The position numbers and the translations under genes were made by a program. 31,593 nt of DNA, from IMG/VR virus record IMGVR_UViG_3300012931_000057, positions 1 through 31,593 of that record, one strand, 5' to 3'. Below are positions 4,584-25,841 of this stretch, in pieces. This DNA is from a virus. The notes beneath the pieces were generated by a model, which worked only from the letters and a program-made list of their open reading frames with translations, searched no databases and was not told the origin of the DNA. Position 1 is the first letter of the stretch. The number at the start of each line of letters is the position of its first letter.

Positions 4584-5011
4584 ACTTTCCTATACCAAGT
4601 GAACTCACACTTATTAAATATGGAGTATATGCCATATTGGTAGCTATATTCCTCGGCGCTGTGTACTATGCAAAGTATGAACATGACACTCTCATTACAT
4701 ACCAAGCATCTGTAGCCCAGGCCGGACGTGACCAAGAAGCTTTAACCAAACAGAAGGATAAAGAAAATGACCAAACTAAACTATATATCGCTCAGTCTTA
4801 TAGTGATGAGCTTGCTAGGTTGCAGCGGTATACCCATCGTAGCCAGTTGCCCAAAGCCTCCAGTGGTGCCCAAAGTTTTGATGGAACCCAGCAAGAACTC
4901 AGCGGAGCTTGCAAAGGCACTGAGTTCTACTCCAACGCCTTAGAAGATGCTTTAAAGTTGCAGACATGGCAGGAGTGGGCAATTCGGCATAACCTTCCTG
5001 TGGAGAACTAA
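4580..5011 (+). CDS. Rz-like inner-membrane spanin
   Basis: A 143-residue protein with an N-terminal transmembrane segment (about residues 12-30, 'YGVYAILVAIFLGAVYYAK') and a long charged periplasmic region ('AGRDQEALTKQKDKENDQTKLY'), the classic i-spanin layout. It links the inner membrane to an outer-membrane lipoprotein and disrupts the outer membrane in the last step of lysis. The identification is strengthened by an Rz1-type lipoprotein gene embedded in the +1 frame. The start overlaps the preceding gene by four bases, and the stop is directly followed by the ATG of the next tail gene. Confidence 0.8.
   Translation: MNFPIPSELTLIKYGVYAILVAIFLGAVYYAKYEHDTLITYQASVAQAGRDQEALTKQKDKENDQTKLYIAQSYSDELARLQRYTHRSQLPKASSGAQSFDGTQQELSGACKGTEFYSNALEDALKLQTWQEWAIRHNLPVEN
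4767..4943 (+). CDS. Rz1-like outer-membrane spanin lipoprotein, embedded in Rz-like gene
   Basis: This 58-residue frame lies wholly inside the inner-spanin gene, shifted by +1. It begins MTKLNYISLSLIVMSLLGCS: a Lys residue, a hydrophobic stretch and an LLGC lipobox with Cys19 as the predicted lipidation site. The mature part is short and proline-rich ('CPKPPVVPKV', ending 'STPTP'), as Rz1 proteins are. This is the lambda-type nested spanin architecture, in which the lipoprotein binds the C-terminus of the inner spanin across the periplasm. It indicates a Gram-negative host. The gene is easy to miss because it is short and fully overlapped. Confidence 0.85.
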   Translation: MTKLNYISLSLIVMSLLGCSGIPIVASCPKPPVVPKVLMEPSKNSAELAKALSSTPTP

Positions 5012-5743
5012 ATGCCATTTGCATTTACTTGGGATGCTACCTTTACTAGTCTGCCTCAGGATAATGAGGCAGCAAGCCTTGGTGCATCTCGAATACGAGA
5101 TTTAAAGAATGCAATAACGGAACGAGAACAGGTTGACCACTCTTGGACTGGTACAGCAAGTGACGGGGCACATATCAAAGTAACCCTCTTGCAACAGGGC
5201 GCTGACCCAAGTGCAGCTACAACAACAGGCTTTTTATATACAAAGAATGTTGCTGGCGCTACGGAGTTATTCTACCGAGATGCAGCGGGGAACATTGTAC
5301 CTATTACGAATGCAGGATTTCTAAATGGAACATTTGTATCTGGTACAAGAATGTCCTTCAATCAGACTGCGGCACCTATCGGATGGACAAAGGACACGAC
5401 AGCAGGCCTGAATGATACTGCACTACGAATTGTAACTGGTGCTATTACACCTAATGGAACTGGCGGCAGTGTGGCTTTTAGTACGGCTCTTGCATCCCCA
5501 GTAGTTACTGGCAGCACAGCTGGATATGTACTGCAAATAGCTGATATACCAGCCCACACGCATAGTGTCCCACAAGGTGGTGGTACACAGACTTTAACTC
5601 CCGGCGGTACAACTGCTGCATTTACTAACCCACAAACAACTGGAAGTACTGGCGGTGGCGGCGCTCACAGTCACGGTGCTGGTACACTAGTTACAGGGAT
5701 AAATGTTAAGTACACCGACTTTATCATAGCGAGTAAAAACTAA
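5012..5743 (+). CDS. Tail fibre / receptor-binding protein
   Basis: A 243-residue virion protein. Its N-terminus has the pattern 'EAASLGASRIRDLKNAITERE', followed by 'DH', which recurs in many phage fibre proteins and probably attaches the fibre. The middle contains 'GTRMSFNQTAAPIGWTKD', a tail-collar-like motif. The C-terminal part is Gly/Thr-rich with 'IPAHTHSV', 'GGGGAHSHGAG' and a final 'YTDFIIASKN'; such His-x-His clusters bind metal in trimeric fibre tips. It starts on the base after the spanin stop. The fibre identity is well supported; receptor specificity cannot be read. Confidence 0.8.
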   Translation: MPFAFTWDATFTSLPQDNEAASLGASRIRDLKNAITEREQVDHSWTGTASDGAHIKVTLLQQGADPSAATTTGFLYTKNVAGATELFYRDAAGNIVPITNAGFLNGTFVSGTRMSFNQTAAPIGWTKDTTAGLNDTALRIVTGAITPNGTGGSVAFSTALASPVVTGSTAGYVLQIADIPAHTHSVPQGGGTQTLTPGGTTAAFTNPQTTGSTGGGGAHSHGAGTLVTGINVKYTDFIIASKN

Positions 5744-6072
5744 TGTCTACTGAGAAGAAAATAATCTGTCCACTGCTTGGAAAGCCTTGCATTGAGGATG
5801 GGACAGTTGTGGAAGGTGAATTACATGCGTGTAGATTCTGGATTAAGATTGTTGGGAAGCATCCACAGACTGGTGCCGAAATAGACCATTATGATTGTGC
5901 CTTTACATGGATGCCTATTCTTTTAATTGAAAATACACAGAAGCAACGAGAAACTGGTGCGGCAGTTGAATCCTTCAGAAATGAGATGGTTAGTGCACAG
6001 GATAGGAGCAATGAACTTGTTTCAAATGTGTTGCACTTAAATAGTCCTGGAGTGAAGCAACTCCCACGATAG
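5743..6072 (+). CDS. Conserved phage protein of unknown function, Cys-containing
   Basis: A 109-residue protein of a type I have seen beside phage fibre genes but cannot name functionally. Four cysteines are arranged as 'CPLLGKPC', 'HACRFW' and 'DHYDCAF', which could bind a metal. The second half is a charged helix including 'VESFRNEMVSAQDRSNELV'. It overlaps the fibre stop by one base (TAATG). Possible roles include a fibre-assembly partner or small virion protein; both are inference from position. Confidence 0.6.
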   Translation: MSTEKKIICPLLGKPCIEDGTVVEGELHACRFWIKIVGKHPQTGAEIDHYDCAFTWMPILLIENTQKQRETGAAVESFRNEMVSAQDRSNELVSNVLHLNSPGVKQLPR

Positions 6073-6078
6073 GATACT

Positions 6079-6561
6079 ATGGCTAACTTAAATGCAGTAT
6101 CTCCATACAAACTTCTACATATCGAGAATCTTTCAGACCCTCGTGTTGTAGAATTGTTCCGCAATCTTATAAGAATTCTAAGTCGGGCACAGTTAGATGT
6201 AGCTCTTTCAGTTAACACAAAGTCTGATAAATTAGTTCTAACCTCACAGATAACACCCCTGCCTGCTGCGGGCACAGTGTATAGTGCCATCCACGGTCTT
6301 GTACCTCCTCCAGTTACTGCTGTTCTTAACTTCATATGCTTAATTGCAGAGCAGGGATATTCTGTTGGGGATACTATCACTGTCCATGCTCAGTGGAACG
6401 GAGTCCTTATTATTCCAATAGACGTATGTGTTGGTGCAACAACAGTGTCGGCAGCACAAGCTGCTGTATATTCGTGTGCGCTTCCGAATAAAACAACAGG
6501 TGCATATTTTACACCGACAGCTGCTTCTTGGGCAGCTAGATTTATCATGCAGGCAAATTGA
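6079..6561 (+). CDS. Virion-module protein of unknown function
   Basis: A 160-residue protein with an N-terminal helical part ('RVVELFRNLIRILSRAQLDVAL') and a beta-rich C-terminal part ('SVGDTITVHAQWNGVLIIPIDV'). No domain is recognised and there is no signal peptide. It has an AGGA ribosome binding site and overlaps the following large virion gene by one base (TGATG). The neighbourhood of fibre and tail genes makes a structural role likely. Confidence 0.55.
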   Translation: MANLNAVSPYKLLHIENLSDPRVVELFRNLIRILSRAQLDVALSVNTKSDKLVLTSQITPLPAAGTVYSAIHGLVPPPVTAVLNFICLIAEQGYSVGDTITVHAQWNGVLIIPIDVCVGATTVSAAQAAVYSCALPNKTTGAYFTPTAASWAARFIMQAN

Positions 6562-8321
6562 TGTCATATCCTAACATTCCAAAGTGGAAGTACACACAGG
6601 TTCCAAACCTTCTTGGGGGTTTGAATCTGGATACTAAACCAGACATGTTATCTGATAATCAGGCTGTGCAGCTTGATGGTGTTATATCAAAGGCAGGAGG
6701 AATTGCTACAGATACTGGATATGTGCCTTTTAATCAGGCTGTTGTAGGACTTCCTCAAGCTACATATGAGTTCCTACGGCAGAATCTAATTGTAAACCTC
6801 ATGCTTATTACAACAAAGACAGTATATAAGCATGATGCATCATTTAACAAATGGCAACTTGTTCAGGGTACAGCAGCTACAACTGCAACAGTTAGTGCAG
6901 GAACCGGAGCATTTAGTATTGCTGTTGCATCTACTGCTGGCTTTGTAAATGGAGACCTTATTGGTGTAACTCTGGATAATGGAGACCAGCTCCAAACAAC
7001 AGCCAACGTGTCGGGCAGTAATTTAGTTATGACCAACGCTGTCCCGGCAGGACGAAATATACTAATTGGTGCTATAGTGGTTCGAGCGCCTGCACTGAAT
7101 GGTAATGTAGACAATCAGGTAAATCCAGTTACAATGTCTGGTAGTGACTGGATGGTGTTTACAAATAATATAGACCCAGTCCAGTACTATGATGGAACAC
7201 ACTGTGTTACTGTACCAAATCTTCCCGGCGGCGGAAACACAACTTGTGTCGCTGTAGCTGTATATAATAGCGCACTATTTCTTCTTGGAACTACAGAAGC
7301 TGGTCAAGTCTTTGCTCAACGTGTTCGTAGGTCGAATCAAACTGACCCAACTAATTGGACAACTGGAACATCTGGTTTTGATGACCTTCGAGATACAGCA
7401 GATAAGATTGTAGCTGGTGATATACTAGGTCCTTACCTTATTGTATATAGAGATAGAAGTATAGTTCGAGGAACATTCATTGGAACAGGTGGATTGAACT
7501 ACTTCTTCGAGACAATGATTGTTGGAGAAGGTGCAGTCTCCGCTGGAGCGATTATCCCAACTGGTGATAATCACCTCTTTGTTGGGCATACAAATGTCTA
7601 TGAATATTACGGAGATTATACAATAAACCCTGTTGGGGATAATATATTCTATCTAGCTTTTGGCTTTACTAGCAATATGAATCCTCAGTATAGACAAAGA
7701 CTCTTTGCATTCTATGTAGAGGAACTTGACGAAGTATGGATTCTATATGCATCTACAACTTCAACAACAGGATATTGTGATACAGTTCTTCGATACAATG
7801 TTGGAGAGAAGTTCTGGTACTCTCGAAAGTTCAATGATGTGCTTATTGGGTTTGGTTACTTCTCAAAAGCAAATAGTACGACATGGTTAGATCTTGTTGG
7901 GACTTGGACTCAGCAGACATGGCTGTGGAATAGTAGAACATCCTTAGCCAACACAGACATTATTCATCTCTGCGCACCTTTAACAAATAGAGTTTATGCA
8001 TATGACTATTCCACGGCTCTTGACAATGGTGTTGCAATAGCATATACTGCAGAAAGTAAAGATTTCACCATGGGCGATGCGAAGTTTCGGTTTGACATGA
8101 TTGAGATGTTTATAAAAGGAACTAACATATTATTTCAATACTCGATAGATTCTGGATATAGTTGGACAACTCTAACAACCATCACACAGAATCCTCAAGA
8201 CCGAGTAAGATTATATGCTCAGTTTATAACAAATCGAGTTCGCTTTCGTTGGTCTGGTTCATCGCCAGATTTTGCACTTGAATGGTTTGGTTTTAGCTAT
8301 AAAGTTGAGAGTCTATACTAG
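6561..8321 (+). CDS. Large virion protein, nozzle/stabilisation-like
   Basis: A 586-residue protein. It opens with a pattern typical of a phage virion family, 'GGLNLDTKPDMLSDNQAVQLDGV' split here as GGLNLDTKPD then DNQAVQLDG, followed by repeated beta-rich blocks ('VYKHDASFNKWQLV', 'VQYYDGTHCVTVPNL', 'DTVLRYNVGEKFWYS', 'NRVYAYDYS') that suggest a beta-propeller. In short-tailed phages such proteins form the tail nozzle or stabilise the portal. The ATG at 6561 overlaps the previous stop; a TTG one codon earlier is less likely. The family call is by pattern only. Confidence 0.65.
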   Translation: MSYPNIPKWKYTQVPNLLGGLNLDTKPDMLSDNQAVQLDGVISKAGGIATDTGYVPFNQAVVGLPQATYEFLRQNLIVNLMLITTKTVYKHDASFNKWQLVQGTAATTATVSAGTGAFSIAVASTAGFVNGDLIGVTLDNGDQLQTTANVSGSNLVMTNAVPAGRNILIGAIVVRAPALNGNVDNQVNPVTMSGSDWMVFTNNIDPVQYYDGTHCVTVPNLPGGGNTTCVAVAVYNSALFLLGTTEAGQVFAQRVRRSNQTDPTNWTTGTSGFDDLRDTADKIVAGDILGPYLIVYRDRSIVRGTFIGTGGLNYFFETMIVGEGAVSAGAIIPTGDNHLFVGHTNVYEYYGDYTINPVGDNIFYLAFGFTSNMNPQYRQRLFAFYVEELDEVWILYASTTSTTGYCDTVLRYNVGEKFWYSRKFNDVLIGFGYFSKANSTTWLDLVGTWTQQTWLWNSRTSLANTDIIHLCAPLTNRVYAYDYSTALDNGVAIAYTAESKDFTMGDAKFRFDMIEMFIKGTNILFQYSIDSGYSWTTLTTITQNPQDRVRLYAQFITNRVRFRWSGSSPDFALEWFGFSYKVESLY

Positions 8322-9160: not shown

Positions 9161-10240
9161 ATGGCTCAAGTTATATATATGCCCCCAAGTCCCAGTGTTG
9201 GTGAAGCACTAGGTCAGGGATTTGGGTCTGTACTTATGCTGCATATGCATCGGCAGCAACAGCAGAAAGAAGTTCAACAAATGCAGATGCTTCAGAGTTC
9301 TGTAGAGCAAGCTGTGCAATCTGGCGGCAGGCAGGCTGGCTTGGAGATAATGAATAAGATTCCATATAAAACTCTTGACCAGTATCAAAAAGGCATGCAG
9401 TGGTTTAATACTATATCTCCACCAAAGGATTTGACTCCACGCGAAGTATCTACATTCGACCCGCAGACTGGGCAGGAAACAAAGCAGTTTGTTCGCACAG
9501 GAGACTTGACAAAGTTTAGTGCGGCTGCACAGCAAGCCGGGCAGACTCTTGCAAAGCCAGATGTTACAGATTTCTATTCCTTAGGACCTGGTGGCACATA
9601 CCAGAATCTTGGGCGTGCACCTGTAACAAATCGTCCTCCTGGAAGTCATACCTTGGAGGAGCTTAAGCTTGTTGAGCAGCAACGAACAGACCAGCTAAAA
9701 CTTGAGGCTGCAAATCGCTCCGAGCGCAAGTTTCAATTTGCCATGGATAAACTTGCAGAGAGCAAGGACAAGCAGGAAGCATCAAAACAGATGACAGAGA
9801 TGAAAGCTTACAATGGTGTTGTCAGTTCCATGCTGAATGTTAAGAAGTCCATAGGAATGAATGGGGAGATTATTCTGGACTTTGGTGGGGATAGCAAGAA
9901 GGCTGATGCATATAGGGAAGCTTTAACTAAAGGTTCGGAGTATCTAGCAAAATATAAAGGAGATATAAACAAAGCTGCCTCAGAAGCTCTTAGTGCCTCT
10001 GGTGCCTTTGACCAGCCTATGCCAGAGGCTCCAACTGCAGCTCCTGCACAGCAAGAGGGTGGCGCAATAACACGACTATATCAGGCACTCAAAGAACGAA
10101 TTACAGGCCAACCTGAATCGGCAGCAAAAGCTCCAGTTGCAAAAGCTCCTGCGCCAGTTTTTGATAAAGGCAAGATATATGTTGATGCTAAAGGAAATCG
10201 TGCAAAGTATCTTGGTAACAATAAGTGGGAAAATCTATAA
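9161..10240 (+). CDS. Internal virion / ejection protein candidate (Gln/Lys-rich)
   Basis: A 359-residue, largely helical protein. It starts 'MAQVIYMPPSPSVGEALGQG', continues with a Gln-rich coiled-coil-like stretch ('HRQQQQKEVQQMQMLQSSVEQ') and a Lys/Glu helix region around residues 165-215, then a low-complexity Ala/Pro linker and a small C-terminal domain ('GKIYVDAKGNRAKYLGNNKWENL' in part). It has no Cys or membrane segment. It overlaps the giant gene by one base (TAATG), suggesting co-translation with it as part of the ejectosome. Function is inferred from composition and position. Confidence 0.6.
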   Translation: MAQVIYMPPSPSVGEALGQGFGSVLMLHMHRQQQQKEVQQMQMLQSSVEQAVQSGGRQAGLEIMNKIPYKTLDQYQKGMQWFNTISPPKDLTPREVSTFDPQTGQETKQFVRTGDLTKFSAAAQQAGQTLAKPDVTDFYSLGPGGTYQNLGRAPVTNRPPGSHTLEELKLVEQQRTDQLKLEAANRSERKFQFAMDKLAESKDKQEASKQMTEMKAYNGVVSSMLNVKKSIGMNGEIILDFGGDSKKADAYREALTKGSEYLAKYKGDINKAASEALSASGAFDQPMPEAPTAAPAQQEGGAITRLYQALKERITGQPESAAKAPVAKAPAPVFDKGKIYVDAKGNRAKYLGNNKWENL

Positions 10241-13200
10241 TGCCCTTCGACCCTGATTCAGCTAAGCTAGTAGATGTACCAAATGAGTTTGACCCAGGTA
10301 CAGCTAAGCCTGTAAGCATGGCTGCAAAAGCTGCTGGGCAGGTTCTTTCTATTCCCAGTCGGATAAAAGAACAAACACTTGCACTTGCACAGCAACCAGG
10401 TGCCGGCTTATATGGTCTTGGGTCACAGGCTATAGCTGGAAATATGGCACTGTTTGAAGCTGCAATTAAGTCTGGTGGAGATAAAGTTGCAGGGAAAAGT
10501 TTTGGAGAACGGTTCTCTGAAGAGTATGATAAAAACTATGCTCATCTTTCTGAACTGTATCATCCGCCCACACCAGCTGGCCAGCAGATGACAGCTAATA
10601 TCAATGAGTTTCTGGATAAGGTTGTTAGTGGACTTGGTGATGTTGCCTTCAAAGAACAGAAATACCAAGCTGAGACATATGCAAAGGAGACTGGTACCAA
10701 GCCAGTTATACCTGTTGAGAAGCAGGCTGCGGCAGCTGGTGCATTTACAGAAGCTCTTGCTACATTAGGTATTCTTACGGCGCCGGGGTTAAAAGGAAAA
10801 GGCGAAGTTAAGGCAGCGCCTGCACCAGTGTTAACTGGAAATGTTTTGTCAGATTTCGTTGCAAAGTATCCAGGAACCTATAGGCGAATGGAAGCTAGTC
10901 ATGTCGGTGATGCACCAGTTGCGGCTGCAAAAGCTGCACAGCCAGAAAGACACTTTGCTCGTATTGTTGAAGATGCAGTGAATAAAGAAATCGGACTGAG
11001 CAAATATCAGGATTTGGCCGAGCCACTTCTTAATATGGAAGGGCAGGCTAAAGTAACACTTGGAGATAAAATCAGACTCATTGTTCAGAAGTATGCTGCA
11101 CAGGCAAAGGAAACTATCCCAGCGCATGAACAAGTAGAGTATGCAAATACGCTAATTAAAAAAATCTTTGAACTCCAACAACAAGCTACGGCAGCAGAGC
11201 TTGCAAAGAAACCACTTGCACTTCCAGCGCCGAAACCACAAGTTGCTTTTGACGAACCTATCATAGTAGACCCTGCCGGGGTTGCAACTATCCATGCAAA
11301 ATACCGGGCTTCCTTAGACCAGATTGCTGAATGGCAAGGTACAACAGTCGACCCAACTGGAGTTGCCGGTCGTGAGATATTACAGAAGTACTATGGTGTG
11401 CCCAGAGGAGAACGATTAACTGAACGTGGAACGCCTGAGCGAAGAACACTTCGGCCAGAAGAAAAACGGTCTGGAATATTTAAGAAGCAGGCTGGTATCT
11501 TAGATATTGACCACCTCGCAGATAATATTGGAGCTATCAAGAACCTTGGAGAAGGTGTAACTAAATACATGCTGGCTGGCTTAGTTGACCCCCCATATGG
11601 TCTAGCTCATACAGCTAACGCGCGTGGAGATGTTACGCTCTTTCGTGTTGTTCCGAAGGGAGAGGATACAAGTCTTAAAGCTGGAGCATACCTTACAGCA
11701 GATAATAGTTATTTAGCATCCCGTGCTGCAGATGGAAAACAGGTTATCCAGCACACAGTTCCAGTTAAGCACCTTGTAGAGTCATCCCCTGGAAGTTATA
11801 TATACACCCCGCCTGGAACAGACCTTGGACCAGTTTTAAAATACCGAGATGGTGATGGCCGAGCTATTACGTTTGCAGACTTCTTACCTCCAGAATCTAT
11901 TAACCGCCCCGGCCTTAGAGGACAAAGCGGAGCAGTAGATATTACAGGGGAAACTCCATCAACTAATAGACCAACTACAAGCCTCCGTACAGATACTCTT
12001 ATGAGTATCCGAGCAAAGGATAGGGGAGATGCAGCCACACCAAAACAGCCTGGACGTTTAGCAGCTGTGCAAGAGAGCATTAAGCAGTATGGAATTAAAC
12101 ACCCAGTACAGGTTCTTATTAGCGACCAAGACCAGCTTGCATATCTTACAAATGGAAATCATAGAGTGTTAGCTGCCAGTAATCTTGGAATTGAAAGTGT
12201 GCCTATAAAGATTGAACATCAGGCTACACCCTTTACTGATGTGCAGAAATCATATGCTCGACCAGTTAGCGAACTTGGACTACAGGGTGTGAAGATTCAA
12301 AAGCCAACTACACCACAAAAAGGTGCAACCTTTGAAGATATGAAACGAATCTTCGGAAAGCATCAGCGCGGTGTATTAGATATAGATGGTATAGAAAAGA
12401 ATACGGAAGAAGCTAAAAAAGCTATTGTTCGAGCAACTGGAGCTGGATGGGCTGTAAGTAATCCTGAGGCGGCTGCACAGTATGTAAAAGATGTAATGAA
12501 TGGTAATGAAGTTGCGATGGAGAAAAATAGAAAAGTATTCAGTGACAACATTGTGAAGAAGGCTCGTCGTGCTATATATGCACATGACTATGATTTGAGA
12601 AAAGCCCTCCAAAATGCAGGCCCGTTGGGGCAAGTTGCTCATGATAGAATGGTTGTGCAGCATGGTGCGACTATGGCTGCGAAGGTAAAGATAGATGCTG
12701 TAAACAAAGATATTTTCAATCCGCTGAATCATGAAGATAGAATGGCACTAGATGAATTAACGCGCCTTCGCCGGATTGTGCAGATAGATAAGTATAAGGG
12801 AATAGGTGTTGTTCGGCATGAAGGTGGTATTACTGGTCCTATGGCTGGGGCTAGAATTAACCAGATGAAAAATGAACTAGGGCCTGATGCGTTTAATAAG
12901 TTGAACAATGCATCAACAAGTATTTTTGAAGAGCAGAAGATATTGCTCGATGAACTTAAAGACAATGGAGTTATTACTCCAGAACTCCATAAGAAGTTAT
13001 ACAACTTCGACTACACACGAACACAGTATCTTGATGCAATAGACCCAATGCTTCCTATAGCATCACATATTCATAACTTGAGAACTTCAGTTAGAAGTTC
13101 TGGAATTGCAACTCTTGGATATGGTAAGAAAATGGCAGTAAACATAAACTCCCAAGACTTACTCATTGAAGATATTGCACGGGTAGAGAATAGAATATTT

Positions 13201-15159
13201 AGAAATAATACCCTACTTGCAGTTCGAGAACTTGCTAAACGAAATCCAGGGAATGATATTGTAAGAATGCCAGGCCCAAAGATGATTAGCACTCTTGCTA
13301 ATGGCGACCAAGTTATGCATCATACTCCAGATGGATACACCTCTATTGGTGTTCGAGTGAAGGGAAAACAAGAATTTATCTTAATGAAAGATGATTATGC
13401 TGAACAGTTCATTGACCGTCCAGAAGGAATTCCTGAATGGTTAGCTGTTACATTCCGAACTGTTAGTGGAACATCCTTGCTTAAAACATCTAGCACAAGT
13501 ATGAACCCTGGCTTCGTGATTGCAGGTATTCCTATGGATATCTTTCATACATGGATGACTGCAAGTGATGTATACAGTCCACATCTGCCAATGTACTTGA
13601 TGCAGATGGGCAAAGACATGCTTGTGACTTCAAAGGATGCTTTCACCAAGACAGGTGCTTGGGAAGATGCAATGAATGAAGGTTTGGGGAGTTCATACTT
13701 AACCCACGAGAGTCGTTCCCTGACAGACCCGAAGAAGTCTATCGCATCAATAATGACTCCGAAGCTGGCACGTACTCGTGAGGCACTCTCCTATCTAAAT
13801 GATACTACTGATATGTGGATTCGCCTGGCGTATAGGAATAGGTTAATTGATAGCGACATGGAGCCATGGCGAGCAACTGCTATGTCTCGGGATAGGTTGG
13901 ACTACTTCCAAGGTGGGCCAATTACTAAAGCCTTTGACTCATTCATCCCGTATGCTAATGTTACGATTCAAGCTACTGGAAAAGCCCTCGAAGCAGCGAA
14001 GCGTGACCCAGGCGCTTTTATGACAAAGACTGCTTGGATAGTTGGCACGGCTGCGTCAGTAAAGATTGCGAATATCATATCCAGTCCAGAGACAGATAAG
14101 ACTATCCCCGTAATGGATAAGGTTCGGAACTTCAATATTACCTTCGGCGACCAGTACTACACCTTCGATGCAAATGGGAATAAGAGATATATGTATGTTC
14201 CTATCCGTCTTGACCAAGTTATAATGCCACTGAATGCAGCTGTTGTTGGCGGACTAGAGAAGGCTGAATATGGTAGAGCACCGAATGGAATAACTGGAAA
14301 TGCTATTGGTCAAGTATCTCCTGTATCTGGTGCTTTTCCAATTCCATCTATTGATGCTGTAGCTACGTATGTGACAAACTATGACGAGTTCACAGACCGA
14401 CCAATATACTCAGGCCCGAAGGTTAGACCTGAAGATGAGGTTCGTTCTTTCGGCACTGGGCAGCCAACAAGTTCTGCTGCGATTGCAGCTGGGCAGCTTA
14501 CTGGAATGAGTCCTATGAGACTGCAGGCGGCAGCAGGGAAGTTAGTGAACACAAATAATGTATACATTCAAGCTATGGGTGGGGCATATAGGTATCTATT
14601 TGAAGGCTCGAATCCAAGAGACCAAGCAACTAGTACAATGCTAATGCTTCAGCATGTTCCTGGTCTTCGGAATATTGTAAAGTTTACTACTCCATATGGA
14701 GATATGATGGATGACCTTACAAAGGCAGAACAACAAGTGGGGTCAATTACATCTAGAAGTACACAAGAACTGAATGACTTAATCTTCCAGGAAGAGCATG
14801 GACAGAATAATGTGACCGTGAAGACAATTGAAACTTATATAAATAATCAGCCTGCGGAGATGCGGCAGAAGCTGGCTGACCATGCAAAGTATACTTTAAA
14901 TGTAGATAAAATCATGGCGCACTATACTGCCTCAGATAATGTTCCTCCTCGAACGTGGTGGATAAATAGTGCAAAGGCACCTGCTGAAGTGCGCGCTCAA
15001 GTCTTCTATAACCAATGGGTCTCGGCAGCACCAGAAGATAGACAGCGTATGTTAAGTATTGCTCAGTCCCTTCAGGCTGCCGGTGTTGGATACCTCTCAC
15101 CAGACTTCCAAAAAGCTTTCATGGAGGAAAGAAAACTGTTGGGAGACGAGCAGCGATAG
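10240..15159 (+). CDS. Giant polyvalent-type ejection protein with ParB-like domain and LPD38-like C-terminus
   Basis: A 1639-residue protein starting at the ATG overlapping the previous stop. Regions: an Ala-rich helical N-terminus (1-160); Lys/Gln-rich helices (230-330); a 'GILDID' motif near 418; a possible ADP-ribosyltransferase-like segment at about 465-520 ('LFRVVPKGED', 'GAYLTADNSYLASRA'); a ParB/Srx-like domain at about 603-665 ('SIKQYGIKHPVQVL', 'NGNHRVLAA' with R642); a second 'GVLDID' motif near 711; long helical regions; and a C-terminal part (about 1060-1300) resembling the LPD38 domain of phage polyvalent proteins ('YLNDTTDMWIRLAYRNRLID', 'DYFQGGPITKAFDSFIPY'). Such proteins are packaged in the virion and injected with the DNA to protect or prime infection. 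Domain calls are from pattern memory; the ADP-ribosyltransferase part is weak. Confidence 0.7.
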   Translation: MPFDPDSAKLVDVPNEFDPGTAKPVSMAAKAAGQVLSIPSRIKEQTLALAQQPGAGLYGLGSQAIAGNMALFEAAIKSGGDKVAGKSFGERFSEEYDKNYAHLSELYHPPTPAGQQMTANINEFLDKVVSGLGDVAFKEQKYQAETYAKETGTKPVIPVEKQAAAAGAFTEALATLGILTAPGLKGKGEVKAAPAPVLTGNVLSDFVAKYPGTYRRMEASHVGDAPVAAAKAAQPERHFARIVEDAVNKEIGLSKYQDLAEPLLNMEGQAKVTLGDKIRLIVQKYAAQAKETIPAHEQVEYANTLIKKIFELQQQATAAELAKKPLALPAPKPQVAFDEPIIVDPAGVATIHAKYRASLDQIAEWQGTTVDPTGVAGREILQKYYGVPRGERLTERGTPERRTLRPEEKRSGIFKKQAGILDIDHLADNIGAIKNLGEGVTKYMLAGLVDPPYGLAHTANARGDVTLFRVVPKGEDTSLKAGAYLTADNSYLASRAADGKQVIQHTVPVKHLVESSPGSYIYTPPGTDLGPVLKYRDGDGRAITFADFLPPESINRPGLRGQSGAVDITGETPSTNRPTTSLRTDTLMSIRAKDRGDAATPKQPGRLAAVQESIKQYGIKHPVQVLISDQDQLAYLTNGNHRVLAASNLGIESVPIKIEHQATPFTDVQKSYARPVSELGLQGVKIQKPTTPQKGATFEDMKRIFGKHQRGVLDIDGIEKNTEEAKKAIVRATGAGWAVSNPEAAAQYVKDVMNGNEVAMEKNRKVFSDNIVKKARRAIYAHDYDLRKALQNAGPLGQVAHDRMVVQHGATMAAKVKIDAVNKDIFNPLNHEDRMALDELTRLRRIVQIDKYKGIGVVRHEGGITGPMAGARINQMKNELGPDAFNKLNNASTSIFEEQKILLDELKDNGVITPELHKKLYNFDYTRTQYLDAIDPMLPIASHIHNLRTSVRSSGIATLGYGKKMAVNINSQDLLIEDIARVENRIFRNNTLLAVRELAKRNPGNDIVRMPGPKMISTLANGDQVMHHTPDGYTSIGVRVKGKQEFILMKDDYAEQFIDRPEGIPEWLAVTFRTVSGTSLLKTSSTSMNPGFVIAGIPMDIFHTWMTASDVYSPHLPMYLMQMGKDMLVTSKDAFTKTGAWEDAMNEGLGSSYLTHESRSLTDPKKSIASIMTPKLARTREALSYLNDTTDMWIRLAYRNRLIDSDMEPWRATAMSRDRLDYFQGGPITKAFDSFIPYANVTIQATGKALEAAKRDPGAFMTKTAWIVGTAASVKIANIISSPETDKTIPVMDKVRNFNITFGDQYYTFDANGNKRYMYVPIRLDQVIMPLNAAVVGGLEKAEYGRAPNGITGNAIGQVSPVSGAFPIPSIDAVATYVTNYDEFTDRPIYSGPKVRPEDEVRSFGTGQPTSSAAIAAGQLTGMSPMRLQAAAGKLVNTNNVYIQAMGGAYRYLFEGSNPRDQATSTMLMLQHVPGLRNIVKFTTPYGDMMDDLTKAEQQVGSITSRSTQELNDLIFQEEHGQNNVTVKTIETYINNQPAEMRQKLADHAKYTLNVDKIMAHYTASDNVPPRTWWINSAKAPAEVRAQVFYNQWVSAAPEDRQRMLSIAQSLQAAGVGYLSPDFQKAFMEERKLLGDEQR

Positions 15160-15415: not shown

Positions 15416-16615
15416 TTACTCCTTCTTCCAAATGTACACTTTATCATTACTCCCAATTATTACTTTAATATCCACAAAGCCTGTCTGTACCATAACCTCC
15501 TCAATTATTCTCATCGTTGCGCCATCTACATCACGGTAGAATTTACTCATAACATCTCGCCTAGACACCGGCGCGTGCATTCCTCTGATGTAGTCCATAA
15601 CCTTCTCCGTGGCGGCAGCATACTTCGCCTGACCGAGGCCACCGAAGGTTCTAGCCATTTTGAACTCAGCACTACGAAGAATCTTGTTTGCCCTATCAAA
15701 GTCTTGTGCGTTCAACACAAGATCATTTCCCCGACTAGCACTCATTATCATCATTAGCTTGCGCAGGTGTGTAGCTCTGCGTTCTGCATATCCGGCGAAT
15801 CGAGAATCCTCAACAGGGAACTTTCCGCTATCCAGTTCTTTGTCATAGTTAGTATACCAGGTTGTATATGCAGTCTCACCGGCAGTATCAAAGTGAAACT
15901 CCCCAGTCAAAGTGTTTATTCTATTCAAGTCTATTATCAATGCATTCCTGAGGTTCGACTCAAACGCTGTGATACCTGGCTTCGGTACTGTTTTACCCTT
16001 CTTATCCTCCACAATAAAGATAACTCTAGATGTAAAACCTCCGCCGACGGCCTCTTGCGGAAGCATACTCTGTAGCCAATCAGGAGCAGTAGCTCCAAGC
16101 AGATTAAAACATAATCCCTGTAGATGGTCTTTTCCACTACCCTTGGTTTCGTAAGTCCAGTCATCTTTTGAGTCATACCAGTCTGTTAATGATGCAAGAA
16201 ATTTAATATCATTCTGTCCGAGGAACACAGATAGTTCTTCACTAAAGCATGTGATGCTACAGTGGAATAGTATCTGGCTATCCGGCATTTGAAAGTTGTT
16301 ACTCGCCGTCTTCATGGCGCGAATAAGTGCCTCACGAGTTGCATTCTCACTTGTCATTGTTACGCCACTACATTCCTTCAATATATCCTTTCCTATCCCC
16401 AAGGCTACACCCTTACGAGTCCTTCCGCTGGGGCCAACTAGTACTATATACATATTAGGAAATATGCGTTCAAAGCCCCATAGGAATTGTACTTTCCTCT
16501 GCAGTGCCCCGGCAATAATACCTATAGCAATCCAAGTATGATAGGCGATAGGTGGCTCACTAGACTCCGTGTATTTTATATAAGCTGTAATCCAATCAGC
16601 AAGTTCGCGTGACAT
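15416..16615 (-). CDS. DUF3987-like replicative helicase / primase-helicase ATPase
   Basis: A 399-residue ATPase. After an N-terminal region ('ADWITAYIKYTESSEPPIAYH') comes a Walker A-type loop 'GPSGRTRKG' at 61-69, preceded by hydrophobic 'YIVLVG', then an acidic Walker B-like 'ITCFSEELSVFLG', an Arg-finger-like 'GGGFTSRVIFIVED', and a C-terminal winged-helix-like segment ('APVSRRDVMSKFY'). This matches DUF3987-type ATPases, which act as replicative helicases in phages. It overlaps the polymerase gene by 20 bases, so the two are co-expressed. It probably unwinds the template ahead of the split family A polymerase. Confidence 0.75.
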   Translation of the reverse strand: MSRELADWITAYIKYTESSEPPIAYHTWIAIGIIAGALQRKVQFLWGFERIFPNMYIVLVGPSGRTRKGVALGIGKDILKECSGVTMTSENATREALIRAMKTASNNFQMPDSQILFHCSITCFSEELSVFLGQNDIKFLASLTDWYDSKDDWTYETKGSGKDHLQGLCFNLLGATAPDWLQSMLPQEAVGGGFTSRVIFIVEDKKGKTVPKPGITAFESNLRNALIIDLNRINTLTGEFHFDTAGETAYTTWYTNYDKELDSGKFPVEDSRFAGYAERRATHLRKLMMIMSASRGNDLVLNAQDFDRANKILRSAEFKMARTFGGLGQAKYAAATEKVMDYIRGMHAPVSRRDVMSKFYRDVDGATMRIIEEVMVQTGFVDIKVIIGSNDKVYIWKKE

Positions 16616-18137
16616 TTAGAATCTCCCGTACACGCTGAACGAAGCTACTAGCATCTTGACCGAATGGAATCTCCTGCATACCGGAAGGGTTTTTCTCTTT
16701 ATGATAGCCACCCCAGTTGTATCCAATCTTTAAGTCAGTTTCAATCTTAAAGCTTCGGCCATTATATTCCATTTCAGGAGACATGAAGTCATAGATTTGT
16801 TTTACTACATCATGGAATCTATTATCCAGCAATACCGATTTCGGAATCTGGACTAGGATACTATCATGTACCTGACCAAGGAGGTCAAGATTTACTGGTC
16901 CGTCTTTTCTGGTAAGGTCGCTATAATAAGTTTTAACAAGACCCGTATTAGTGCAATCAGCAACTGTGCTCTGAGGAATGGCAGAATATGCTGCCTTGAA
17001 TAGAGCGTCCCCCCATGCATCCAGGAAGTGTATTTTACGACCGAAGCAGTTTGTGAGAGCTCTATCTGCACTGAGCTGCCTCTTAACGAACGAGTGCCAC
17101 TGCCGGATACCGGGGTATATCGAGTGGTATAGAGCAATAACTCTTTTCGCCTCGGCAATCTCAATTTCATTTGTAAGAGCAAATGTGTTTGGTCCTTCGT
17201 CATAGTTAAGTCCATGATTGGATTTCTTTCCCATTTGCCGGCCACTCATTGAACCCGGCAGCAAGTGTACAACAGCCCTCAGGTCAGGGTCATCCATACG
17301 GCGCTGGAGTATCTCATCCCTATCCATCAAGCCACCAACTATTTTACTATCATGCTTGATTAAATCCTTTGGGATTCCAAACATGAGGTGCGCTGTATGA
17401 GTATGCGGGTCATCTCCAGTTTGGATAACCCGCATCATGTTCGCATCGCCGCTGAGGTATGCAACAACTACCCACTCTGCTTGTCTTTTGTCGAACTCGG
17501 CAAGGAAGTAATCATCGTCGGCAGTCGGGAACTTTTTAAATTCTGGAGGTAAGTTCTGCAAATTAGTACCAGTACGGAATACTGTAGCAGAGGAAGAGAG
17601 CCGTCCGAACTTCGTGCCTCTGGGATTGTAAGCGCATCGCAAGCGTCCATCGCTGTCGAAATCAATGTCCAGATAGGTTGAGAATAACTTTCCATATCCT
17701 CGAATATCTTGGATAAGCCTTGCCTCTCGCATTCCGGGACGCTTTGCAGTACCTCTTGCAATTCGTTGTAGAGCTTTATCATCTGTCGTAACTCCACCTT
17801 CTTTGTTGTAGTATGCTGGAATCCCCTTCGTGATGTAGAAGTAGTTGGCAACCTGCTTCGGGCTGTTTGCATTTAGAGCAAAGCCACAGACTTTATTCAG
17901 TTCTTCCTGCGCAGCTTCCTTGGCAGCAGAGATATCTTTTTTACTCTCTTCAAGGGCTTTGAGATTAACTTTGATACCACGATGTTGCATGAACATAAGA
18001 GGTTCAAAGAGCTTCATCGTGAAGTCATATGTCCAGCGATGGCCATTTGTATCTATGTCATCCTTAATAGCATTCCAGATTTCATAGGTACAAGCAGAGT
18101 CAAGAGCATTGTAGTAAAGTAGACGGTCAGTACTCAT
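16596..18137 (-). CDS. DNA polymerase family A, polymerase part with Exo III motif
   Basis: A 513-residue protein carrying the palm, fingers and thumb of a Pol I-type replicative polymerase. Its first residues contain the exonuclease Exo III motif 'YNALD' (Y9, D13), so the exonuclease domain is shared with the upstream gene. Motif A is 'FDKRQAE' (D216), motif B 'RQMGKKSNHGLNYDEG' (R300, K304, H308, Y312), motif C 'GQVHDS' (H424, D425). The residue equivalent to E. coli F762 or T7 Y526 is His, and the usual YG is YD. The start overlaps the upstream stop (TAATG), with AAAGGA as a ribosome binding site. It is the replicative polymerase of this phage. Confidence 0.92.
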   Translation of the reverse strand: MSTDRLLYYNALDSACTYEIWNAIKDDIDTNGHRWTYDFTMKLFEPLMFMQHRGIKVNLKALEESKKDISAAKEAAQEELNKVCGFALNANSPKQVANYFYITKGIPAYYNKEGGVTTDDKALQRIARGTAKRPGMREARLIQDIRGYGKLFSTYLDIDFDSDGRLRCAYNPRGTKFGRLSSSATVFRTGTNLQNLPPEFKKFPTADDDYFLAEFDKRQAEWVVVAYLSGDANMMRVIQTGDDPHTHTAHLMFGIPKDLIKHDSKIVGGLMDRDEILQRRMDDPDLRAVVHLLPGSMSGRQMGKKSNHGLNYDEGPNTFALTNEIEIAEAKRVIALYHSIYPGIRQWHSFVKRQLSADRALTNCFGRKIHFLDAWGDALFKAAYSAIPQSTVADCTNTGLVKTYYSDLTRKDGPVNLDLLGQVHDSILVQIPKSVLLDNRFHDVVKQIYDFMSPEMEYNGRSFKIETDLKIGYNWGGYHKEKNPSGMQEIPFGQDASSFVQRVREILNVTRTC

Positions 18138-19144
18138 TATGACTCATCCTTTATGTTATCAAACTTAACCATATCCTTCCAGTATTCCTGTGCCCCACAG
18201 TATAGTGATCCAAGAAAACCTAGACCTTTCAACATATCTGGATACATAATATGATGAGCAATCATAGTGTCTTCAACGATATTCATAGGAATATGAATGC
18301 CACACTGGGTCATCAAAAATGCTACGTCGAAGATGCCATTTTGGAAAATCTTCTTTGCTCCATTCGTCAGCACTGTATGAAGCATCTGCCAGAGTTCAAA
18401 CTCTTCTTGCTCAGTCCAGGCACTGCGACCGACTGTAAAGGAGATAGATACCGAAGGACTGATGGCAAAGGATATAGCACTGACTTCAAAGTTCTCCACC
18501 TCGATGTCACAGACATATTCAGGAACTTGCTGGATTTTATCTATCCAGTCTCGGCATTCCTGAATACTTTCTGGCATTACAATCTGTCGAACTGGTCTTC
18601 TAATTTCGGGAAAAGCTGACTCACTTTTGGCCTTACGCAAATCTGCGGTGATATAGTATCGTAGTATATACTGACCACGCAGTGTGGCAGCGGGATGGTA
18701 AGTCGGGATAACCTTTCTGCTTCCATATTGTGCAGAAGTCTGAGTAACGTATCCCCTATATTTGGTAGGACTCCTGAGTCCTGTGACCGCAGCCATCGCA
18801 ACGGCACCGAGAGTGACAATGGTATTACTGTGAATGTTGGAAAGTTCTTCTCTGAGGGAATCAAGCCAGCCAGTTCCAGAAGCTGTAAAAGTTCCAGTCC
18901 GAGCATTGTAGAAGGGGGCGATGTCATTGTTTTTTGGTTTCACCTTTATTGTGTTAGTTATATAGCAGTCCTGCCGAGTGAGTCCAGCAGCATGAAGGCA
19001 GTGGTCAAGGACAGTTCCGCTTGCACCAGCAAAGGGGCGAAGAACTCTATCTTCCTCAGCCCCCGGAGCTTCACCGATGATGCAGATTTTAGCCTCAGGA
19101 TTTCCGATTCCTGGAACTATCCTGTCATGAATGGGGAGAAACAT
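18137..19144 (-). CDS. Uracil-DNA glycosylase fused to partial 3'-5' exonuclease domain (N-terminal part of split DNA polymerase)
   Basis: A 335-residue fusion. Residues about 15-170 form a family 4/5-like uracil-DNA glycosylase: 'GEAPGAEEDRVLRPFAGASG' (24-43), 'TNTIKVKPKN' (64-72) and 'PTYHPA' (147-152). The paired N-terminal cysteines of Fe-S family 4 enzymes are not seen. Residues 205-335 hold the Pol I-type proofreading domain: Exo I 'DIE' (D213, E215) and Exo II 'QNGIFD' (N269, D273), then 'EDTMIAHHIMYP'. The Exo III motif is missing here and is found at the start of the next gene. It probably excises uracil and edits mismatches as a partner of the polymerase. It overlaps both neighbours by one base. 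Confidence 0.88.
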   Translation of the reverse strand: MFLPIHDRIVPGIGNPEAKICIIGEAPGAEEDRVLRPFAGASGTVLDHCLHAAGLTRQDCYITNTIKVKPKNNDIAPFYNARTGTFTASGTGWLDSLREELSNIHSNTIVTLGAVAMAAVTGLRSPTKYRGYVTQTSAQYGSRKVIPTYHPAATLRGQYILRYYITADLRKAKSESAFPEIRRPVRQIVMPESIQECRDWIDKIQQVPEYVCDIEVENFEVSAISFAISPSVSISFTVGRSAWTEQEEFELWQMLHTVLTNGAKKIFQNGIFDVAFLMTQCGIHIPMNIVEDTMIAHHIMYPDMLKGLGFLGSLYCGAQEYWKDMVKFDNIKDES

Positions 19145-20454
19145 TATTCATCCTCAGTTTTATTTAACTTCTCTGTATCTTCCTGCACCGCCAGGAGGAA
19201 CTTATCCTTATATTCTGGATTAAGGTCATATCCCCAGCCCGTACAGCCCATGTTATACATAGCTCGTAGCGTAGCACCACTTCCCAGGAATGGAACAAGG
19301 ACGTGACTGTTTATACCGACAAAGGTGTCGATGAGTTCTTCTATCAAGGCTACTGGTCGTTCAGTTGGATGGTACTTTCTTGATGGAGCTACTGGCTCAA
19401 AGATAAATACATTAGGGCGACCACGCTTATTCAGCGCAGGCCTACCCTTACGGCATATAAAGAAAGGTTCATATGCTCTTGCCAAGTATGTCTCTGGGGA
19501 CAGAGTCTGTCCATGGCCTTTAGCCCAGATGCCGGGAATGTCATCTACTTCCCACTTAGCTTCCCGCAGTGCTTGTAGGACTATAGTGTGATGAGTAGGC
19601 CCAAACCAGAATACCATCCAGCAGTTGGAGCTGGCCAGCCGATACGTTTGCTCAGCAACTGTTTGAAGAAAATCTGCATATTCAGTTCTTGGAACTTCCT
19701 TATACGTTGTTGGCCTTTCACCAGTTCTATTCTTCTGTTCTGGAAGGTCAATTCCGTAAGGAGGGTCCACTTCAATGAAGTGGATATTTCCAGCACCATT
19801 CGGCAGAGCTTTCATTTCTTCCAGCGCATCGCCGATTTTGTAGTTACTCTTCGCAAGTTCAAGGACATTCTTTAATCCGGTGTCCTTAGTTACCTCCTGA
19901 CGCCGGCGTAGTTCGGCTGTGACAACTGCCTCTTCAAATTTCTTCAATGTCTTCAGAGCATCATCCTGAGTTGCGCACTTAGCAAGCTCTGGCATATCTT
20001 CCAGTGCATCAGCAAGCTGCAAGGAACGACTGACATTCATAGGGTGGCTGTGGCCAAGAAGCTTGGCAGTCTTCCTAAGACTCCAGTCTTGGTTCTTGGA
20101 CTTGCATAGCCTATCAATTTCAGCTATTAGCTTTGCTTGTTCATCCCAGGCGAAGTCCTTACGAAAGACATTTTCAATTAGTTCTACCTCTCGGCTATCG
20201 ACTGGGGCATCAGTATTATCTTGGTAACGCACCATAGCAGGGATTTGAGTAAGCCCAGCGAGGCGTGCAGCCGCAACTCTGCGACCGCCAGCAAGAAGCT
20301 GGTAGTCTTGATTCACAGTTATAGGCTGCAGTACACCCTTGTCCCTGATGCTGTCAGCAAGGTCAAGTATATCAGGAGATGTTGGAAGGATGTTTCTATA
20401 CCTATCTCCGATTGTGATATTATCAAGAGGGATGAAAAGAAGCGTGTTATCCAT
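19144..20454 (-). CDS. ParB-like domain / DNA methyltransferase fusion
   Basis: A 436-residue fusion. Residues 5-80 are a ParB N-terminal (Srx-like) domain with 'LADSIRDKGVLQPITV' and 'LLAGGRRVAAARLAGL' (56-68). Residues about 100-160 hold a ParB-type helix-turn-helix ('DWSLRKTAKLLGHSHPMNVS'). Residues 200-436 are a beta-order amino-methyltransferase: 'DPPYG' (230-234), 'HPTERPVALIEELI' (362-375) and 'PFLGSG' (388-393), probably N6-adenine. No restriction partner is seen, so it is an orphan enzyme for host-restriction evasion or regulation. The ATG at 20454 with AAGGTG is preferred over a GTG three codons upstream. It overlaps the upstream gene by 8 bases and the downstream one by one. Confidence 0.88.
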   Translation of the reverse strand: MDNTLLFIPLDNITIGDRYRNILPTSPDILDLADSIRDKGVLQPITVNQDYQLLAGGRRVAAARLAGLTQIPAMVRYQDNTDAPVDSREVELIENVFRKDFAWDEQAKLIAEIDRLCKSKNQDWSLRKTAKLLGHSHPMNVSRSLQLADALEDMPELAKCATQDDALKTLKKFEEAVVTAELRRRQEVTKDTGLKNVLELAKSNYKIGDALEEMKALPNGAGNIHFIEVDPPYGIDLPEQKNRTGERPTTYKEVPRTEYADFLQTVAEQTYRLASSNCWMVFWFGPTHHTIVLQALREAKWEVDDIPGIWAKGHGQTLSPETYLARAYEPFFICRKGRPALNKRGRPNVFIFEPVAPSRKYHPTERPVALIEELIDTFVGINSHVLVPFLGSGATLRAMYNMGCTGWGYDLNPEYKDKFLLAVQEDTEKLNKTEDE

Positions 20455-20692
20455 TACTATCACCTTTGAGTAGTTTTATTAAATCTGCCTTTTCCTCAGC
20501 ACTAAGGTTCTTTATCGCTTTGTCAACTTTGTTCCTCTGCTGATTAGTTTCTTTCTTCACAACTTCTTCTTGTCGCTTAACGGCAGCAGGGCGAACAACA
20601 GTTTTATTGTGTCGTATCTGACGAACGAACTCTCTTAGTTCGTCATCAGACATATTGCTAATGTCTTTGGTTATATCTGCGAGTCGCATCAT
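20447..20692 (-). CDS. Small charged helical protein of unknown function
   Basis: An 81-residue protein rich in Lys, Glu and Arg, with 'MSDDELREFVRQIRHNK' and a C-terminal 'KNLSAEEKADLIKLL'. The C-terminal helix closely resembles the end of the 113-residue protein further upstream in this module ('NMSKEEKAALLASL'), suggesting a shared small interaction motif. Its start overlaps the stop of the 58-residue gene (ATGA), and its end overlaps the methyltransferase start, so it is translationally coupled to both. A nucleic-acid or protein-binding role is possible but not shown. Confidence 0.65.
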   Translation of the reverse strand: MMRLADITKDISNMSDDELREFVRQIRHNKTVVRPAAVKRQEEVVKKETNQQRNKVDKAIKNLSAEEKADLIKLLKGDSNG

Positions 20693-25140: not shown

Positions 25141-25841
25141 TTTGAAACTCCCATACTGTCTAAAATATCACAAAAATTAAGATATATATGCCCTGCCAAC
25201 GCAGCATACGCAGCATTCGCAGCATAAGCAGCATAAGCAGCAGCATTCGCAGCATACGCAGCATACGTAGCAGTCGCAGCATTCGCAGCATTCTCAGCAT
25301 TCGCAGCATCCGCAGCATCATAAGCAGCATACGCAGCAGCATTCGCAGCATCCGCAGCATACGCAGCAGCATTCGCAGCATTCGCAGCATTCTCAGCAGT
25401 CGCAGCATCATAAGCAGCATACGCAGCAGCATTCGCAGCATTCTTAGATCGGTCTACATTGGATAGCCAACTTTCAGCCCAAAGATTAAAATTGTACTCA
25501 TTATAAACTACCAGGGCACTGCGAATAGCAAATTCTATTTTCTGCTCTATACTTATAACTGGGAGCGGTAATTCTCGTTTAAGTGTTAATGCTTTGCACC
25601 AGCACTTACACTCATCAGTGCCTAGGTATGTATCTGTTTCTGCCTCAAAAAGTCTGGGATTGAGAAAATTGCTGTGTATAGGATTAAATATTACAGCAAG
25701 TCTGGGGTCAGCATAGGCGTGAATTACACCAGCTGAGCAAGGGTTATTTGATTTACCGAGAGCATGTGCCTTAACACCAAGTTCATACTGGAAGCTACAA
25801 TATGTGCTCATGCGTTCATCTGTTAACTTAAACAGTTTCAT
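25137..25841 (-). CDS. Conserved phage protein with long Ala-rich tripeptide repeat
   Basis: A 234-residue protein. Residues 1-132 form a compact domain of a phage family I recognise but cannot name functionally: 'MKLFKLTDERMSTYC', 'CSAGVIHAYADPRLAVIFNP', 'IHSNFLNPRLFEAE', 'WAESWLSNVDRS'. Residues about 133-214 are a low-complexity tract of (x-Ala-Ala) units with x mainly Asn, Tyr or Asp, broken by an extra Ala at intervals. A short tail 'IYLNFCDILDSMGVSK' closes it. The tract is probably a long helix with a stripe of polar residues, as seen in other members. AAGGAG precedes the ATG. Function unknown. Confidence 0.75.
   Translation of the reverse strand: MKLFKLTDERMSTYCSFQYELGVKAHALGKSNNPCSAGVIHAYADPRLAVIFNPIHSNFLNPRLFEAETDTYLGTDECKCWCKALTLKRELPLPVISIEQKIEFAIRSALVVYNEYNFNLWAESWLSNVDRSKNAANAAAYAAYDAATAENAANAANAAAYAADAANAAAYAAYDAADAANAENAANAATATYAAYAANAAAYAAYAANAAYAALAGHIYLNFCDILDSMGVSK
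25199..25443. repeat. Short tandem repeat (9-nt unit, GCAGCATNC-type) with 90-nt higher-order period
   Basis: About 245 bases are built from degenerate copies of a 9-base unit around GCAGCAT plus two variable bases. On top of this, a 40-base block at 25312-25351 recurs exactly at 25402-25441, a 90-base (30-codon) period. The tract encodes the (x-Ala-Ala) region of the leftward gene; because the unit is a multiple of three, several other frames stay open too, without being genes. Confidence 0.9.

Follow-up and report, generated by a model that had tools for sequence, protein, structure and literature searches.

A fused enzyme of uracil-DNA glycosylase (UDG), exonuclease and family A DNA polymerase (PolA) is known from Pseudomonas phage PaBG (gp205; PMC7412058), and phage enzymes divided between two genes have also been described. 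In the T4-like Aeromonas phages 25 and 44RR, gene 43 is split into 43A and 43B with a homing endonuclease nearby, and the two phage 25 proteins are reported in a review to co-purify and to be active as a polymerase; the same review describes the NrdA of phage Aeh1, which is split by insertion of mobE and is reassembled and fully active (PMC2988022). In the OM43 phages MEP401 and MEP402, PolA is split in two open reading frames (ORFs) with a small gene between them, across a lineage (PMC10580990; OP830907 gp13/gp15), and an intron was proposed at the split by the authors (PMC10580990). In this study, we describe a contig of 31.6 kb from a virus of bacteria (IMG/VR record IMGVR_UViG_3300012931_000057, positions 1 to 31,593; hereafter the window). 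Its only polymerase, of the UDG-exonuclease-polymerase type, is encoded by two genes, and the cut lies just ahead of exonuclease motif III (Exo III). Split phage polymerases are thus already known, and the cut before Exo III differs from both known forms. In the full-text literature open to searching, no description of a PolA divided at this place was met with.

The uncut phage UDG-exonuclease-PolA enzymes have the same three domains in equal order, and their close members share with the window a ParB-methyltransferase upstream and a primase downstream; they are, however, one polypeptide, whereas the window has two. The 43A/43B polymerase is likewise a replicative polymerase in two polypeptides, but it belongs to family B and has no glycosylase. 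MEP401 and MEP402 PolA is of family A and in two ORFs as in the window, but it lacks a UDG, and the cut does not fall in the exonuclease; in MEP402 it was located at polymerase motif A, gp15 beginning MILNADAKALEW. Because of the cut at motif A in the one and the family B origin of the other, the window polymerase was kept separate from both types. Aeh1 NrdA combines a homing-endonuclease split with reassembly, akin to what is proposed below, but is a ribonucleotide reductase. Exo I-III and the polymerase core of the Klenow fragment of E. coli Pol I align with the window type, although Klenow is a single chain without UDG. The features expected of gene fission, namely two complementary ORFs, a cut conserved in relatives and the existence of uncut homologues, were all found for the window polymerase.

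Both genes lie on the minus strand, as do their motifs, the junction and the two neighbouring genes of the window given below. The first (18137..19144) encodes a 335-aa protein, here called the UDG-exo protein, with a UDG domain at aa ~11-157 (PF03167, 6e-28), a 3'-5' exonuclease domain at aa ~190-325 (DNA_pol_A_exo1, PF01612, 3e-7) that lacks the last helix of the fold and a conserved C-terminal tail. The second (16596..18137) encodes a 513-aa protein in which the Exo III helix is followed by the thumb, palm and fingers of a family A DNA polymerase (DNA_pol_A, PF00476, 1.4e-40). The DEDDy motif set (DxE, N-x2-3-F/Y-D, Y-x3-D) is complete in the window, but over two proteins. Exo I (DIE, aa 213-215; 18500..18508) and Exo II (QNGIFD, aa 268-273; 18326..18343) are on the UDG-exo protein and align with Klenow DTE and QNLKYD, while Exo III (YNALD, aa 9-13, with Y9 and D13; 18099..18113) is on the polymerase protein and aligns with Klenow YAAED; a profile of the uncut relatives matches the same three Klenow motifs. 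The usual single chain of proofreading and polymerase is therefore absent from the window, which has two ORFs with Exo III on the polymerase ORF only. This agrees with the original prediction, made from the DNA sequence, which had placed Exo I and Exo II on the UDG-fusion protein and Exo III within the first 13 residues of the polymerase.

At the junction the minus strand reads AACATAAAGGATGAGTCATAATGAGTACTGAC, with a one-base gene overlap, TAATG, in which the stop TAA and the start ATG have one base in common; a Shine-Dalgarno-like AAAGGA lies 9 nt 5' of the ATG (AAAGGATGAGTCATAATG, 18135..18152). The methyltransferase/UDG junction is likewise TAATG (GAATAATGTTT), so that the likeness of the two junctions, also part of the original prediction, could be read directly from the strand. 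The accompanying idea that a stop-start overlap couples the two genes fits the window but fails as a general form, direct junctions being present in only five of ~38 split loci. A Shine-Dalgarno-like word of at least 4 bases was found at 82% of split polymerase starts compared with 25% of random sites, a comparison that is somewhat favourable since start codons were picked partly by that word.

Relatives were collected by scanning viral contigs with the polymerase and then with a polymerase alignment, which gave ~100 loci (numbered with the prefix L). Once duplicates had been removed, the polymerase was scored as split in 41 loci and as uncut in 56; one split locus at a contig edge (L053) was dropped, leaving 40, window included. 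A scan of the viral contigs with the UDG-exo protein alone gave no match, nor did DNA-level searches of a phage collection, whether the query was the window or the locus. The cut falls at an identical place in the 40 loci, which come from many metagenomes and from the isolate Caulobacter phage Kuura, and this bears out the earlier view of a real split as opposed to a sequencing error. In Kuura the first half is annotated 'hypothetical protein', and in the parts of the Kuura paper (PMC9959647) that deal with uracil or exonuclease the split is not mentioned. A phylogeny built from the polymerase part places 36 of the split loci, among them the window, on a single branch (Shimodaira-Hasegawa-like approximate likelihood ratio test support, 95). 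Three further split loci (L047, L051 and L055) lie near this clade among uncut loci, and Kuura lies far away. A constraint joining the 39 non-Kuura split loci was weakly rejected (approximately unbiased test, p 0.029), which disfavours a single origin for all 39. The tree and the test therefore indicate one old split event and probably at least one more, in Kuura, which is probably independent; L047, L051 and L055 may represent a second event, or their neighbours may have re-fused, giving perhaps a third event or re-fusions overall. Relatives with a continuous gene had been named beforehand as grounds for giving up the split: such genes exist in distant relatives, but the window's own 36-locus clade is split throughout, mostly with intervening genes, and the split was retained.

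The distance between the halves ranges from -4 to ~1670 bp. The halves abut (gap -4 to 0 bp) in the window, L003, L024, L030 and L037, while in ~33 loci ~160-1670 bp separate them, mostly occupied by same-strand genes. These are mainly small ORFs of no known kind, many in ATGA overlap with the stop of the UDG-exo gene. Others could be assigned: HNH endonuclease genes in L023, L034 and L056, a dCMP deaminase gene in L055 (4522-4974), dATP/dGTP pyrophosphohydrolase genes in L041 (3186-3485) and L051 (4482-4784), and a helicase gene, also in L041. In L034 the HNH gene (2040-2560) lies within the 3' end of the exonuclease gene. The final codons of its ORF are the old exonuclease tail, with 42 of 51 nt identical to the sister locus L101, and the exonuclease gene ahead of it ends in a second, more divergent tail (36/51). 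From its sequence, L034 looks like a snapshot of a homing endonuclease that has invaded a gene and restored the 3' end of that gene, and it is because of this tail arrangement that the split is considered here to have been caused, in all likelihood, by homing-endonuclease insertion.

The catalytic residues are kept on both sides of the cut. D213, E215, N269 and D273, together with D292, are invariant in 36 aligned UDG-exo proteins of split loci, and Y-x3-D is present in every split polymerase, 7-24 codons after the start. The ratio of nonsynonymous to synonymous substitution rates (dN/dS), where measurable, is ~0.02-0.13 for the exonuclease part and the Exo III segment alike. The UDG-exo proteins end in a tail (KDMVKFDNIKDES in the window, 18140..18178; consensus KDxVKFxNIKxES), and the C-terminal ends of the 36 agree to within one alignment column. 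This conservation of catalytic residues, the low dN/dS and the constant C-terminal end support a joint function of the two halves, as judged from the sequences.

Structure prediction places the cut in relation to the fold. Modelled alone by AlphaFold, the window UDG-exo protein reached a predicted local distance difference test score (pLDDT) of 90.5, with only residues 327-335 below 50, and Foldseek matched the model to the T. maritima and Tth (family 4) UDGs and to the Klenow exonuclease domain. The uncut relative L057 (pLDDT 89.6) matched the Klenow fragment of E. coli Pol I. A block of its model at 341-360 has a pLDDT of 57-63, the only other weak spots being the N-terminus and 191-200. This block lies between a conserved YYK and a helix (357-386) that bears Y364 and D368 of Exo III and continues toward the polymerase. 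Since the weak stretch stands just ahead of the Exo III helix, the cut, in the model of this relative, falls in a flexible loop. What the exonuclease domain loses to the polymerase is its final helix, which it would regain on binding.

We consider it likely that the gene of a UDG-exonuclease-polymerase underwent fission, that proofreading is rebuilt from two docked proteins and that a homing endonuclease was the probable origin of the cut. A family A phage replication polymerase gene would have been divided in a surface loop just ahead of Exo III, one product being a UDG-exonuclease protein that retains Exo I and Exo II, the other a polymerase starting at the Exo III helix. The two proteins would dock to form one proofreading polymerase, the N-terminal helix of the polymerase completing the exonuclease fold and contributing Y9 and D13, so that exonuclease activity would arise in trans. 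The UDG-exo protein probably helps to hold the joint with its conserved tail. In the window, translation through the TAATG stop-start overlap would make both proteins in step. The split itself probably began when an HNH homing endonuclease, or else some other mobile gene, inserted there, and its site would since have been kept as a spot of gene gain and loss.

Other explanations were weighed against this one. An artefact of sequencing or assembly, or a recent mutation interrupting a continuous gene in the window contig, might be suspected from the single gene found in ~55 more distant relatives (56 as scored), among them Desulfofustis phage LS06-2018-MD01 and Microcystis phage Mel-JY34. However, the 36 loci of the window's clade are cut at the same column, split polymerases have their own start codons with Shine-Dalgarno-like words, and the tail of the UDG-exo proteins is constant; this explanation has almost no probability left, and sequencing error is ruled out by the split relatives. 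Phage polA genes carry introns and inteins, and a full-length enzyme could in principle still be made by frameshifting, stop readthrough or RNA splicing. The direct junctions of the window and a few relatives would allow it, and L030 would need readthrough of a single TAG. Against this, the polymerase frame of the window (TGA GTC ATA ATG) is open for only two codons 5' of the ATG and closed at the third, which leaves no hidden in-frame link between the halves, and no slippery site is evident. In ~33 relatives several stops and separate genes intervene, which excludes a frameshifted fusion in those loci. No Rfam intron was detected in the 10 related loci searched or at the window junction, and the signature of an intron- or intein-interrupted polA is missing from the window, where the junction holds no inserted sequence whatever. 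Frameshifting, readthrough and an intron are thus rejected for most relatives and not needed in the window, and joining of the halves is improbable overall.

It is also conceivable that proofreading has been lost, the polymerase acting alone and the UDG-exo protein having a separate job in uracil repair or as a stand-alone nuclease. One protein holds the whole polymerase domain, the UDG-exo protein is predicted to fold well by itself and carries a repair domain in its UDG, and jumbo phages provide a precedent with stand-alone 3'-5' exonucleases beside exonuclease-less polymerases (PMC7824862). Yet all split polymerases retain a Y-x3-D that serves no purpose where no exonuclease is present, evolution of the Exo III segment is as slow as that of the remainder, and decay hits the UDG motif and not the exonuclease motifs. 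Without proofreading, we infer, a split polymerase would have no cause to retain the Exo III Tyr and Asp, and loss of proofreading is judged rather unlikely. Three points nevertheless weigh against fission with reassembly as set out above. The tail of the UDG-exo protein is predicted to be disordered when modelled alone; an independent role of this protein would give a low dN/dS too; and HNH genes occur at only three of ~33 junctions with intervening sequence, so that the proposed origin is guessed from a small number of examples.

The glycosylase half follows a different course. In the window the UDG motifs GEAPGAEED (19049..19075) and YHPAA (18686..18700) are intact, and the fold, the GEAPGxxED motif and the HP motif of family 4 (UDGa-like) enzymes are all found (PF03167 as above; Foldseek match to TM0511, template modelling score 0.75 of the target). 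A 4Fe-4S cluster is typical of family 4 UDGs; no CxxC occurs ahead of the GEAPG motif in the window UDG-exo protein, and the domain was for this reason filed as family-4-like only. GEAPG is retained in the window, L024, L041, L042 and L052, and GEAPGxxED is degraded in many split relatives (GDFSSGYDM and similar; L001, L002, L006, L029-L039 and others). Glycosylase activity is therefore, to judge from the motif, not a constant part of the split arrangement. Since the exonuclease residues are invariant while the UDG motif decays, the exonuclease site is guarded by selection more strictly than the glycosylase. The earlier proposal of an active site shared by two polypeptides with a glycosylase attached to one of them accordingly survives in its first part, through the residues kept on both sides and the low dN/dS, but not as regards a constant glycosylase.

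As a natural experiment, a proofreading site that is divided over two gene products and has been kept for as long as a whole phage clade has existed bears on exonuclease-polymerase coupling, and the split offers an in vitro means of adding proofreading to the polymerase or withholding it. It also identifies the exonuclease/polymerase boundary as a place where homing endonucleases and nucleotide-metabolism genes insert. Annotation pipelines label the first half 'hypothetical protein', as in Kuura, and such phages therefore seem to lack proofreading. It is a speculative and rather doubtful extension that these phages have a widespread, unrecognised class of replicase with a detachable UDG-exo proofreading subunit that borrows the Exo III helix. 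Stop-start coupling or inserted genes would then fix how much of each protein is made, and this ratio would tune fidelity and uracil surveillance during infection.

In the order of transcription, the two genes of the window are preceded by the ParB-methyltransferase gene (19144..20463; ParB-like domain and N6/N4 DNA methyltransferase), which is TAATG-coupled to the UDG-exo gene, and followed by a gene for a primase/helicase-like protein (15416..16615; PHROG 14296); this order is kept in relatives. The polymerase carries motif A (AEFDKRQAEW, 17472..17501), motif B (RQMGKKSNHGLNYD, 17199..17240) and motif C (QVHDSI, 16857..16874), and D216 of motif A and H424-D425 of motif C are invariant in the polymerase alignment (A2). 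Motif A is uncut in the window, but it is the site of a second recurrent split in relatives, in which the polymerase is cut just before the motif and the pieces lie 40 bp to 3.1 kb apart. The first piece ends ..FKxFLVAD and the second begins MxxLIEFDKxxAEW, the same site as in MEP402 gp13/gp15. This split was seen in L005 (6594-6637), L008 (4321-5992), L009 (6609-6808), L010 (6594-7025), L011 (4725-6007), L012 (4469-5989), L014 (2868-6001) and L015 (up to 3691), and the genes within it include thyX, a GH25 lysozyme and a peptidase. The pre-Exo III and motif A splits were together in no locus seen.

Motif B is the site of an in-frame, intein-like insert of ~300 aa in L006 (6921-7828), which begins CMPGDTEV after GKK, and probably also of one in L042, the closest relative of the window, which has a similarly long polymerase ORF (4968-7445); the insert is absent from the window. 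In the uncut relative L007 (3600-3755), an in-frame stop occurs just past motif C (AQIHDAI) with homology continuing to 3752, indicating a broken gene, a read error or recoding. Elsewhere in the window, a weak Rfam match to the isrG small RNA (25182-25441; 28.9 bits against a gathering score of 100, E 0.0004) is probably due to chance, and the half with virion genes contains a 1644-aa ORF (10225-15159), of which aa 609-666 form a short ParB-like segment.

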